Of a DNA stretch of 64,000 bases, positions 13,609 through 17,584 are shown piece after piece. Source of the DNA: Candidatus Poseidoniaceae archaeon. GTDB lineage: Archaea > Thermoplasmatota > Poseidoniia > Poseidoniales > Poseidoniaceae. Every line of letters starts with the position of its first letter. Position 1 is the first letter of the stretch. Both the position numbers and the translations under genes were made by a program. Location: contig CASIAI010000002.1 of the NCBI GenBank assembly GCA_949372655.1, positions 1 to 64,000 of the forward strand, given 5' to 3'. The notes beneath the pieces are model-generated. The model was given only the letters and a program-made list of their open reading frames with translations. It was not told where the DNA came from and made no database searches.

Positions 13609-15384
13609 TCACTTGAAGAACCCTTTAAATGAGGTGCTCCAATCGATTTTACTTTGTTCAAACCATTGTTCAGGACTTTCATAGGAAGATTCATTTCCAT
13701 TTTTACGTTTCATTTTAACTCGATGGCTAATTAGCTTCCAAGCTGTTTTCTCTCCGATTCCAGGAATTGATTGTAATTGCTTTTGAGAAATTAGATCGTG
13801 ATCCAAATTGACTTCGACACCAGTTATTGACCTTGCACCATGTCCAGTAATTATGATGTCAGATTGCGTTTCTAAAGGAATAAGGTACTCAGCGCCTATT
13901 AGTATTGGGTAGGCGCCAATTTGCCTACCGAAAGTAATCCCTGCTTTTCCACGGCAAATTTCCGATGTATGATTCTCACCTAGGTGCTTAGGTAATCTTG
14001 TTCTACCATCATGAGATTCCCAATGCACATCGCATAACTTGCCACCCAGTGGGAATAATTCTCGGAGTAAAGGTTTATCGATAGTCTCACGTACATTACT
14101 TTTGAAGTTCTTGAAGGACTCTTGAGGTATCTCTTGGAAACCTTCTCCTTCCACTTGTCGAATATTTATTCGACGTAGTAGTAGATTCTCTTTGCGTATT
14201 TCGTGCAATAGGTCAAGATTTAATTGATAGGTTTCTTCTGACTCACCATTCAAACCTGCAATGAAATTGAGCCCCGGTAGGAGTTTAGGTAAGCCTCTTT
14301 CGCCACGTTCTTTGCCATATTTATTTATCAGCCTAATGGCATCCTTGAGTTGTCCTGAATCACAATTGAGCCAATTTGCTTCATGGACATTAGGGTCGGC
14401 GGATTCAAGTCCAAAAGAGAGTACTGCTCCATCAGACAATGTTTCCACTAACGTCTTAGTAATCTCTTCTGAGGGCTCCATATTTTCAGCTATGATCGAA
14501 GGATTACCATTATCTGTATGAAGAATCCCGAGCCTTTCATCATCTCGAAGTCCATGAAGTAGTTTTGCAATAGGTTCTGGATTTGGTATTGGATATTCCA
14601 AATCCTTGACACCTTCAGCCATATAGGTATAGGTATCAGTCATACCCCCAAGTCGAACATGCTTTACACCCATATCATGGGCGATTTGAACCTCTTCAAT
14701 AATATCTTCAGGAGTTCGCCAAATTGGTATTCCTTTCTTTGGCTCAATACAGAACTTACATCCTCGTTTGAATCGAACACAGCCTTGGTAAACTTCAACT
14801 TCATATGTCAAAGGACCAGGCTTTTGATCATCTCCAAGGTCGGGGTGGAATTCTACAGCCTTACTTTTCGCCCCAAGGTGGGCCCATCTTGTCCATTGCT
14901 CTGAGTTTCTTCGACTATGCTTCCACTGATTAGTTTCAAGATAAGTGTTCAATGTGGCATCAGTATCTTGCAAAGCCAAAAATAAATTTCTCCTCAAGGG
15001 GTTCCAACCCTTCTGTCGCCATCCACGTATTGCCCAGCCTCCGAGTATGGCTGGAACTTCTGAAGGTAGTTGTCGAACAACTGTTTGCATTTCCTTCAGT
15101 GAAATTGGAGCACCTCTAAGGTATCTGCCAGGTACTACTGCGCCAGCAATACAAGCAAAACCTTCTATCTGAGACATTAACTTCTGAACACCAGCTTCGC
15201 CTTTTTGTTCAACAAAACTACGCCATTGGTCAATTGTCATATATCGATAATCTATTTTTGCATCTTCTAAAACTCCACAAAGATATCGGATATGGAAGCC
15301 GACATATGGTGGAACACCAAATGCAGCAGGTTCATCTTCATAGCCATCGAGAACTAACCACTTAGGGTCACTATGCTCGGCCAT
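13609..15384 (-). CDS. Radical SAM Fe-S oxidoreductase with C-terminal helix-hairpin-helix (COG1031 type)
   Basis: A 591-residue protein with a radical SAM core. The cluster-binding cysteines lie near residues 201-212 in the unusual arrangement C-x6-C-x2-C (CVRFKRGCKFC), followed by IEPKKGIP and a strongly conserved VRLGGMTDTYTYM block. This matches the archaeal COG1031 family, in which a CPR-x-GGC-x-FC-TEP version is usual. The C-terminal part carries a helix-hairpin-helix (SIPGIGEKTAWKLI, about residues 540-555), suggesting nucleic-acid binding. The true substrate of this family is unknown to me. It lies 24 bp downstream of the Csl4-RRM gene, so RNA modification or processing is a plausible theme. 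Confidence 0.8.
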   Translation of the reverse strand: MAEHSDPKWLVLDGYEDEPAAFGVPPYVGFHIRYLCGVLEDAKIDYRYMTIDQWRSFVEQKGEAGVQKLMSQIEGFACIAGAVVPGRYLRGAPISLKEMQTVVRQLPSEVPAILGGWAIRGWRQKGWNPLRRNLFLALQDTDATLNTYLETNQWKHSRRNSEQWTRWAHLGAKSKAVEFHPDLGDDQKPGPLTYEVEVYQGCVRFKRGCKFCIEPKKGIPIWRTPEDIIEEVQIAHDMGVKHVRLGGMTDTYTYMAEGVKDLEYPIPNPEPIAKLLHGLRDDERLGILHTDNGNPSIIAENMEPSEEITKTLVETLSDGAVLSFGLESADPNVHEANWLNCDSGQLKDAIRLINKYGKERGERGLPKLLPGLNFIAGLNGESEETYQLNLDLLHEIRKENLLLRRINIRQVEGEGFQEIPQESFKNFKSNVRETIDKPLLRELFPLGGKLCDVHWESHDGRTRLPKHLGENHTSEICRGKAGITFGRQIGAYPILIGAEYLIPLETQSDIIITGHGARSITGVEVNLDHDLISQKQLQSIPGIGEKTAWKLISHRVKMKRKNGNESSYESPEQWFEQSKIDWSTSFKGFFK

Positions 15385-15408: not shown

Positions 15409-16836
15409 TCAATCCTTCTTAGACTGAGGACTTCGCTTACGCTTTTTCGAATCTTCTTCTTCTTCACGCATTGCTCGCATTTCTCTTGAAGATTTTTCAG
15501 GCTTACCACCACTATTATTGGAATTGTTGTTACTACGCTTCTTTTGTTGAGCAACATCCACTCGAATCTTTCTTCCTAGTAATTCACTACCATTTACCGA
15601 CTTAACAATCTCTTCAGCCTTGTCTTTTTCTTTAACAAATGCAAAAGCAAAACCTTTCGGTTTTCCAGCGTTATCGGTAATTATGTTTAGCCCAGTAATG
15701 GTTGCAACACCTTTGAAAACTTGCTTTAACTGCTCTTCAGTGGCTTTGAATGGTAGATTGCCAATATATAATTTAGCACCTTCAGGATCCTTTCTCTTAT
15801 CCTTCTTACCTTTCTTATCATCGCTATCGGCGTCTCTTACTCCGATTCTCCGACCGTTTACTTTGTGACCATCTAGTTCAGCAGCAGCAGCGTCGGCTTC
15901 AGATTTATCGCTATATGTCACAAACCCAAATCCACGGTTAGCACCGTTCTCATCTGTAGGAACTACACAATCGCTCATATCGCCGAACTTACCAAACATT
16001 TCACGTAACTCTTCAGTTCCAACCTCTCTAGGTAGTCCACCAATGAATAGTTTACATCCAGGGCTGTGCCTAGGTCTTTGCGGGCCACGTCCACTGCCAC
16101 CTTCGCCTTCGAATTTGAAATATGTTCTTTCACGACCATCTTCTCTAACATCTTCAGCGATGAATGTAGCACGTCCTGAAGGTCCTTTGCCAAACATAGA
16201 TTCTGCCGCTGAGCCCCATCTCTTACCAGAGTTATTCAGAGCGCTAGCACCTTGATCTAATTCAGCCCAACCCGCACCGTAATTATCTGCAAGTGCTCGA
16301 TATGCTTGATATCCACATGATTCACATTTAACATTCCAATCACCATCTTGTTCAGCGATTAGAATTTCTCCACAAGGTGGACAAATAGCATGAAGCACTC
16401 CACAATCATCTCGTTCACGGAAATCGATACGTACTACAGGTTCAACCTCTTTTATTAGGGCACGGCAAACATCACGTCTCCTTACAGCATCAGCTGTTTG
16501 ATGCATATACCTATCAACAATCCCAGTAACAAAGAACTGTCCATAAAGATGATTTGGCTGAATACTTCCTTGCTTTCCTTCTACAGCAAGTATCATTGCT
16601 TCTCCATTCTTTTCATTGAGTTTAACTATTTCACAAATCACAGTGTCGCCAATAGACGGGCTAACTAGTTCTTTTTTAGGAACTACCATTCCAAATCCTT
16701 CCTCGATAGAAAACATACCGATTGTAGTTGCAACAATCTTTCCATCGACTTCAATAGTTCCTTCACCAGCTGCACATTTGGCAGAGGTTGATACTTGCAT
16801 TCCAGGGGTGACGAGGCTCGCCGTCATGTTATTCAT
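15409..16836 (-). CDS. csl4: Exosome subunit Csl4 fused to two RRM domains
   Basis: The first 180 residues are an archaeal Csl4: N-terminal domain (LVTPGMQV, GEGTIEVDGK), an S1-like barrel (about 60-137) and a zinc ribbon (CPPC 152-155, CESC 171-174, within CGVLHAICPPC). Csl4 caps the archaeal RNA exosome and recruits substrates. After a linker follow two RNA recognition motifs: RRM1 about 262-336 (RNP2 LFIGGL, RNP1 RGFGFVTY) and RRM2 about 355-428 (RNP2 LYIGNL, RNP1 KGFAFAFV). A Lys/Ser/Glu-rich disordered tail ends the protein. Archaeal Csl4 is normally about 180-200 residues; this one has 475. The frame is continuous with no frameshift sign. An ATG at 16827 is an alternative start. The RRMs probably widen RNA capture by the exosome (inference). 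Confidence 0.88.
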   Translation of the reverse strand: MNNMTASLVTPGMQVSTSAKCAAGEGTIEVDGKIVATTIGMFSIEEGFGMVVPKKELVSPSIGDTVICEIVKLNEKNGEAMILAVEGKQGSIQPNHLYGQFFVTGIVDRYMHQTADAVRRRDVCRALIKEVEPVVRIDFRERDDCGVLHAICPPCGEILIAEQDGDWNVKCESCGYQAYRALADNYGAGWAELDQGASALNNSGKRWGSAAESMFGKGPSGRATFIAEDVREDGRERTYFKFEGEGGSGRGPQRPRHSPGCKLFIGGLPREVGTEELREMFGKFGDMSDCVVPTDENGANRGFGFVTYSDKSEADAAAAELDGHKVNGRRIGVRDADSDDKKGKKDKRKDPEGAKLYIGNLPFKATEEQLKQVFKGVATITGLNIITDNAGKPKGFAFAFVKEKDKAEEIVKSVNGSELLGRKIRVDVAQQKKRSNNNSNNSGGKPEKSSREMRAMREEEEDSKKRKRSPQSKKD

Positions 16837-16948: not shown

Positions 16949-17584
16949 TTACTCACTTTCGATAATTTTTTTGTCACCAGGTTTGTAAAACCTCCAACAT
17001 CTTGCATCAGTTGTTGTTTTCTTCTTCGAATGATGAGAATAAATTGGAGGTAAACGGAAATCAGTTTCAAAAACGATTTCTCCTTCATAACCAAAATCCT
17101 TGGCTATCGCTTGTAGATGTTTGGCTTTGGTAGAATGAAGGACATAGATAGCAGTAGCATCCAGTGAGAAAGCAAATTCCAGCAAAGGTCTATCCGCTCT
17201 TTCCGTTTGAAATCCCCATGGTGGATTCATAACAACAATATCGCTTTGAATAGGAATTTGAATCTCTTGATTACCGATTAAAGCATGTATAGTTTTAATT
17301 TCAGTGACTAATTTAAGATTTACTTTCTCAGCATTTTGCTTGGAAATTAGGCTAGCCTCTTCATCTGCTTCGATTAAAAATACTTTACTGGCTCCTAGAT
17401 AAGCGGTACCTAATCCAAGTATTCCATTGCCAGAACCAAGGTCCACTACTGTTTTATTTTCAAGATTATCTAGTTGGTCTATGGCTAAAATCCAGAATGC
17501 AGCTAAGTCACCTTCTGTAGAATATTGTTCAAGTTCGACAGAATTATGAGGATGTGGTTTGAGTTTTGATAACTCGATGGCCAA
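16949..17584 (-). CDS. METTL5-like N6-adenine RNA methyltransferase
   Basis: A Rossmann-fold methyltransferase of 211 residues. The SAM loop is DLGSGNG (48-54), the acidic residue after strand 2 lies in IEADE, and the catalytic motif is NPPW (120-123), placing it among N6-adenine methyltransferases. The N-terminal LEQYSTEG and the FQTERADRPLLE block downstream of NPPW match the COG2263/METTL5 family, which methylates one adenine in small-subunit rRNA. Family members usually have NPPF, so Trp123 is a mild departure. It lies 112 bp upstream of the Csl4-RRM gene on the same strand, within an RNA-related block. Confidence 0.82.
   Translation of the reverse strand: MAIELSKLKPHPHNSVELEQYSTEGDLAAFWILAIDQLDNLENKTVVDLGSGNGILGLGTAYLGASKVFLIEADEEASLISKQNAEKVNLKLVTEIKTIHALIGNQEIQIPIQSDIVVMNPPWGFQTERADRPLLEFAFSLDATAIYVLHSTKAKHLQAIAKDFGYEGEIVFETDFRLPPIYSHHSKKKTTTDARCWRFYKPGDKKIIESE

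Follow-up and report, generated by a model that had tools for sequence, protein, structure and literature searches.

The minus strand of the window (the whole 64,000-nucleotide stretch of DNA analysed) carries a gene in which an archaeal exosome cap protein, Csl4, is continued in the same reading frame by two RNA recognition motifs (RRMs). Sequence comparisons confirm that its 475-aa product consists of an archaeal Csl4 joined by a conserved linker to two canonical RRMs, with a charged tail at the end. The single-frame fusion proposed in the initial annotation is thus supported, and it is conserved across relatives. We consider it likely, at roughly three chances in four, that this protein serves as the Csl4 subunit of the exosome cap and that its tethered RRMs would take up single-stranded RNA and feed it to the pore. 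The frame is open from the ATG at position 16836 to the stop codon ending at 15409, and its parts are as follows:

15409..16836, minus strand: whole gene, Csl4-linker-RRM1-RRM2-tail fusion of 475 aa (coordinates include the stop codon)
16276..16815, minus strand: Csl4 module, aa 8-187 (NF034126, 2.3e-24; PDB 2ba1, 4.5e-12)
16714..16815, minus strand: ECR1_N exosome-cap N-terminal domain, aa 8-41 (Pfam PF14382, below the gathering score)
16306..16383, minus strand: zinc ribbon CPPC...CESC, aa 152-177 (Pfam PF02150, RPB9-type, 0.0049, below the cut-off)
16063..16266, minus strand: conserved linker, aa 191-258 (from the alignment; counterpart in both families of the order)
15844..16050, minus strand: RRM1, aa 263-331, RNP2 LFIGGL, RNP1 RGFGFVTY (RRM_1, 1.9e-22)
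15562..15771, minus strand: RRM2, aa 356-425 (from genome coordinates), RNP2 LYIGNL, RNP1 KGFAFAFV (RRM_1, 1.0e-17)
15412..15537, minus strand: charged Lys/Arg/Ser/Glu-rich tail, aa 434-475 (conserved RE..A..EE motif; dN/dS 0.20)

The Csl4 module aligns with positions 2-179 of the 180 positions of the NCBIfam Csl4 model (NF034126) and comprises the N-terminal domain, the S1 region (by alignment) and the zinc ribbon. Its score of 86.2 bits is just under the curated cut-off of 90 bits, which was passed in 11 of the 17 genomes of the window's order that were scanned. In the PDB search, the Csl4 of the A. fulgidus exosome (2ba1) matched aa 8-189. The ECR1_N match (2e-5) reaches 24.7 bits against a cut-off of 27, and the Pfam S1 model finds no match in the window protein; therefore, the S1 barrel is placed from the full-length Csl4 alignment. 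The four cysteines of the zinc ribbon are present in 28 of 29 aligned fusion proteins; the exception (L099, from the window's family) stands with three proteins from the third group of the class (L129, L130 and L131) among the Csl4 proteins that have lost zinc-ribbon cysteines. Since several relatives align from M-T-x-S-L-V-T-P-G, the true start of the fusion protein may be Met4 rather than Met1. AlphaFold2, run on the window protein as a single sequence without an alignment, gave a mean pLDDT of 37. For the RRM part, Pfam RRM_1 (PF00076) matches the whole window protein at 2.5e-40 with two domains, which score 79.8 and 64.7 bits in the genome scan against a Pfam cut-off of 20.7, far beyond chance.

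The spread of the fusion was followed in a phylum sample of 389 Thermoplasmatota genomes scanned with RRM_1. The window's family gave matches in 71 of its 72 genomes and the sister family in 54 of 55; the third group of the class had them in all seven genomes, and the other Thermoplasmatota in 21 of 255. Exactly two matches were counted in 68 of the 71 genomes of the window's family (three in G288 and G161, four in G255), and a single one in 53 of the 54 of the sister family. The reading was taken to the sequence level in 49 of the 127 order genomes of the sample and in 14 same-genus genomes, 63 altogether; for the remaining order genomes the evidence is the RRM tally alone. In all 63, Csl4 and RRM lie in one frame, with two RRMs each in 43 genomes of the window's family and one each in 20 of the sister family; three of these frames (L030, L031 and L102) are cut at the 5' end by the end of a contig and a few contain N. 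An assembly join or an indel between the two parts, or an absence of the fusion from all relatives, either of which would have undone the initial annotation, is ruled out by these 63 one-frame genomes.

A search for relatives matched 54 of 59 genomes and covered 10 of 10 genera, while no relatives of the fusion were found on viral contigs. Contig breaks fall within the fusion gene in G010, G288 and G161, which explains the three RRM matches of the latter two. No match to the fusion gene was obtained in G042, G358, G012, G014, G017 and G033; in the first two the RRM scan is empty and the Csl4 scan gives 1.7e-9 or no match, so that the gene probably falls in an assembly gap. In one sister-family genome (G355) the Csl4 and RRM parts are in different frames across an N-rich stretch. 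Two of the four RRM_1 matches of G255, from the window's family, lie outside the fusion gene. RRMs are thus not always confined to the fusion, and additional RRM genes may exist in a few of the order's genomes. A second, partial Csl4-RRM copy was seen on another contig of a sister-family genome with 3% contamination (G046:C27:23-997) and possibly comes from a contaminating strain.

The proteins of the sister family follow a different design: Csl4, a linker of the same kind as in the window's family, a CxxC-x17-CxxC module, a spacer and one RRM. The cysteines of this module are present in 15 of 15 aligned proteins, and in the two proteins scanned it matches TIGR04272 with 40.4 and 50.8 bits against a cut-off of 36. 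At the sister-family loci (e.g., L036 and L108) the zinc module sits where the window's family has RRM1, as if modules had been swapped on one Csl4 scaffold.

The genome of the window encodes the other components of an archaeal exosome, with Rrp4, Rrp41 and Rrp42 in one operon (G000:C3). Rrp41 is over its curated cut-off; Rrp42 and Rrp4 are under theirs, by a wider margin than Csl4. Given that Csl4, ECR1_N, Rrp42 and Rrp4 all score under curated cut-offs, docking could have changed in the window's protein. An Rrp41/Rrp42-like pair is present in 21 of the 22 genomes scanned, the exception being G046. The Csl4 matches fall on the fused gene only in all 17 order genomes scanned. Sixteen also show a single additional match the size of Rrp4, G046 carries the second, partial fused copy mentioned above, and in none of the 17 did a plain Csl4 turn up beside the fused one.

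These counts bear on the possibility that the fusion protein has left the exosome and acts as a free RRM protein, for instance in translation or mRNA stability, with Csl4 kept as an S1/zinc module. The lower Csl4 scores of the order (76.6-128.1 bits for near-full-length matches in 17 genomes, vs. up to 205.7 in other Thermoplasmatota) would agree with such a change, as would the finding that the two RRM_1 matches of the fusion gene are the only ones in the window's genome (75% complete), making it the sole RRM_1 gene there. However, the fused protein is the only Csl4 in genomes where Rrp41/Rrp42 and the Rrp4-sized matches persist, and its Csl4 part is full length and under strong selection, with a dN/dS of 0.055 estimated from 19 close same-genus pairs that leave out the gene of the window itself. 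We therefore regard a departure from the exosome as unlikely.

A second alternative is that the RRMs substitute for DnaG, the usual RNA-binding partner in archaea, which is bound via Csl4. The exosome-binding C-terminal domain (CTD) of DnaG does score very weakly in the order (at best 1.2e-6, in some cases without a separate hit), whereas the NTD and TOPRIM are strong. Nevertheless, DnaG was found in 21 of the 22 genomes scanned and in 13 of the 14 of the order; it is missing only from the window genome, which is 75% complete. The CTD in the order is still alignable and keeps part of the core motif. Furthermore, its divergence outpaces that of the remaining DnaG in each comparison made: identities of CTD and NTD + TOPRIM are 0.25 and 0.48 for one family of the order against other Thermoplasmatota, 0.25 and 0.47 for the other, 0.30 and 0.61 for the third group, and 0.43 and 0.71 among the others. 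Because this domain diverges fast everywhere, its weak scores are no special sign, and since the order retains DnaG, there is no evident gap for the RRMs to fill. The replacement of DnaG was therefore dropped as a very improbable explanation.

Within the fusion protein, constraint is highest on the RRMs. In the same-genus pairs, dN/dS is 0.026 for RRM1 and 0.032 for RRM2, indicating the strongest purifying selection, vs. 0.046 for the linker, 0.060 for the stretch between the RRMs and, as listed above, the higher value of the tail. Position 2 of RNP2 and positions 1, 3 and 5 of RNP1, aromatic and basic positions which we take to be RNA-contact residues, are kept in all 36 distinct RRM1, all 41 distinct RRM2 and all 20 distinct sister-family RRMs. 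The linker, 68 residues with conserved positions in both families, has no Pfam match at 0.01 and is perhaps a docking site. All 14 aligned proteins from the window's family have the RE..A..EE motif in the tail, which is otherwise variable. UHM-type RRMs bind proteins, and the linker and the tail motif could serve as docking sites; nonetheless, no copy deviates at the four RNP positions examined, a pattern that RNA-binding RRMs would show, so it is hardly probable that the RRMs act mainly in this fashion by recruiting helpers to the exosome.

The reading that we prefer is that of an exosome cap subunit with its own RNA-capturing domains. The Csl4 part would dock on the Rrp41/Rrp42 ring, and the conserved linker would keep the RRMs above the entry pore. 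There, the RRMs would bind single-stranded RNA and deliver the 3' end of this RNA to the ring for phosphorolysis (or tail addition). As a cap can contain up to three Csl4 subunits, several RRMs could be present per exosome, which could add affinity and some sequence preference.

Passages of a study on S. solfataricus (PMC4227792) describe an exosome in which Rrp4 and Csl4 cap the Rrp41/Rrp42 ring, Csl4 being anchored mainly by its N-terminal domain. In these passages Csl4 does not bind poly(A) strongly, DnaG joins the complex via Csl4, and the RNA-binding subunits described for the archaeal exosome are Rrp4, Csl4 and DnaG. An artificial fusion reported there, in which the NTD of DnaG was placed on the C-terminus of Csl4 (Csl4-NT; PMC4227792, Hou et al. 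2014), bound poly(A) and gave faster decay. The protein of the window resembles this construct, as far as those passages describe it, in having an additional RNA-binding domain on the C-terminus of Csl4; it differs in that the construct is laboratory-made, with a DnaG domain and from Sulfolobus, whereas the fusion described here is natural and based on RRMs. It is from a natural fusion built like the artificial one that RRM capture above the pore and a biased entry of RNA would follow, and by this analogy we infer that the RRMs may alter the substrate choice of the exosome.

A functional parallel exists in RBM7 of the mammalian NEXT complex, an RRM protein that, according to parts of two papers (PMC4417160, PMC5146272), helps the exosome to choose its RNAs. 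The likeness lies in the RRM-aided choice, and homology is claimed for the RRM only; as presented there, RBM7 is a separate eukaryotic adaptor working with ZCCHC8 and hMTR4 (SKIV2L2) and not a subunit of the cap. Compared with known archaeal Csl4 (2ba1, NF034126), the fusion shares the full-length match from the N-terminal domain through the zinc ribbon, but adds about 285 residues (linker, two RRMs and tail) where plain Csl4 proteins end at around residue 190-200. No description of a Csl4-RRM fusion was found in a literature search of titles and abstract starts of open-licence papers.

The origin of the fusion was approached with an RRM tree of 83 rows, 54 from fusion proteins and 29 from standalone archaeal RRMs, over an alignment of 82 columns; same-genus near-copies and RRM1 or single-RRM rows containing X were left out. 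All 54 fusion RRMs lie on one side of a branch with support of 99/93, and this shared position is consistent with a single fusion in an ancestor common to the window's order. Constrained trees gave p-AU values, with 82 columns only, of 0.156 for RRM2 grouped with the sister-family RRM, 0.519 for RRM1 grouped with the sister-family RRM, 0.252 for RRM1 with RRM2 and 0.166 for RRM2 alone. The standalone archaeal RRM proteins have the same domain with IY[VI]GNL and [RK]GFGF motifs; unlike the fusion RRMs, which hold their own side of the tree, they are encoded by separate genes.

Two neighbours on the same strand flank the gene:

16949..17584, minus strand: upstream neighbour, METTL5-like methyltransferase (PDB 6h2u, human METTL5, 7.6e-25)
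13609..15384, minus strand: downstream neighbour, radical SAM protein with a weak C-terminal HhH match (Pfam)

The match to human METTL5 confirms the identity proposed earlier for the first of them. The second had been called an HhH radical SAM protein, of which the radical SAM part holds (45.7 bits, over the cut-off) and the HhH part stays below its cut-off (18.2 of 24 bits). A METTL5-like gene lies upstream on the same strand at 58 of the 63 fusion loci, and also at 5 of 5 loci with a full Csl4 in the third group and at 12 of 30 other plain Csl4 loci. Since METTL5 adjoins plain Csl4 genes too, this arrangement is old, and the fusion gene occupies the old csl4 locus beside METTL5; in genomic place, as in sequence, it is like an archaeal Csl4. 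The radical SAM neighbour follows downstream on the same strand at 60 of the 63 fusion loci and was seen at none of the 30 plain Csl4 loci, whose flanks cover only about 1.5 kb.

Outside the order, Csl4 and RRM were found as separate proteins in the two archaeal phyla scanned, the Thermoplasmatota and the Archaeoglobus phylum. In the third group of the class Csl4 is plain, with 185-214 aa (full match in 5 of 7 genomes), and the RRM is a separate gene with a frame of 85-105 aa; the five genomes with a full match carry the two genes on different contigs. In the 21 RRM-bearing Thermoplasmatota genomes from beyond the class, the RRM frames measure 81-158 aa. Csl4 frames outside the order are mostly of about 185-220 aa among the matches listed, and none of seven longer plain Csl4 frames that were fetched (263-511 aa) has an RRM match. 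The remark that RRMs are rare in archaea has to be softened for the standalone form, which is not very rare: it occurs in 28 of 262 Thermoplasmatota genomes outside the window's order, and RRM_1 matches are present in 50 of 392 genomes of the Archaeoglobus phylum, nine of these by weak partial hits.

In the latter phylum, the longest frames with a strong RRM have 293, 268, 239, 227 and 225 aa. These five were opened together with nine of the shorter frames and all nine weak partial hits; no Csl4 part was found in any of them, including every RRM_1 frame over 200 aa. The nine weak hits (frames of 268-373 aa, E 4.7e-5 to 9.4e-4) do not match a purpose-built RRM model at 1e-3. The plain 186-aa Csl4 of three Archaeoglobi was recovered, these sequences being also among the 46 rows of the Csl4 model; a scan of genome contigs with an Archaeoglobus Csl4 query returned three Archaeoglobi loci.

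The natural fusion suggests a single complex for both the capture and the destruction of RNA in an order of probably marine archaea. The Marine Group II placement implied in the initial annotation is not at odds with the way in which the genomes divide into order and families. A wider reading, which we put forward tentatively and hold to be somewhat doubtful, is that of a self-selecting exosome: the RRM-cap fusion would have arisen once in the ancestor of the order, nearly all RRM recognition in these archaea would feed decay or tailing, and the cap would be a built-in counterpart of the eukaryotic adaptors, with the sister family presenting a second design in which a zinc module stands for RRM1. 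The principle of RRM adaptors known from eukaryotes, RBM7 for example, would then arise here in a form covalently joined to the cap. A natural, order-wide Csl4-RRM fusion offers a clean handle on how RNAs are selected by the exosome of archaea: the RRM pair could be expressed alone to define its RNA motif, and its swap or deletion in a reconstituted exosome would show the role of the cap.

Finally, besides Rrp41 and Rrp42, the window's genome encodes a bacterial-type ribonuclease PH (G000:C1:388804-389628, plus strand; locus L175:2305-3129). It scores 246.8 bits with TIGR01966 against a cut-off of 141.5 and is the sole copy that was typed. Thirteen of 14 order genomes show a third RNase PH-domain gene, as against none of eight outside the order, and in G046 the gene of this third type is the only RNase PH-domain gene found.
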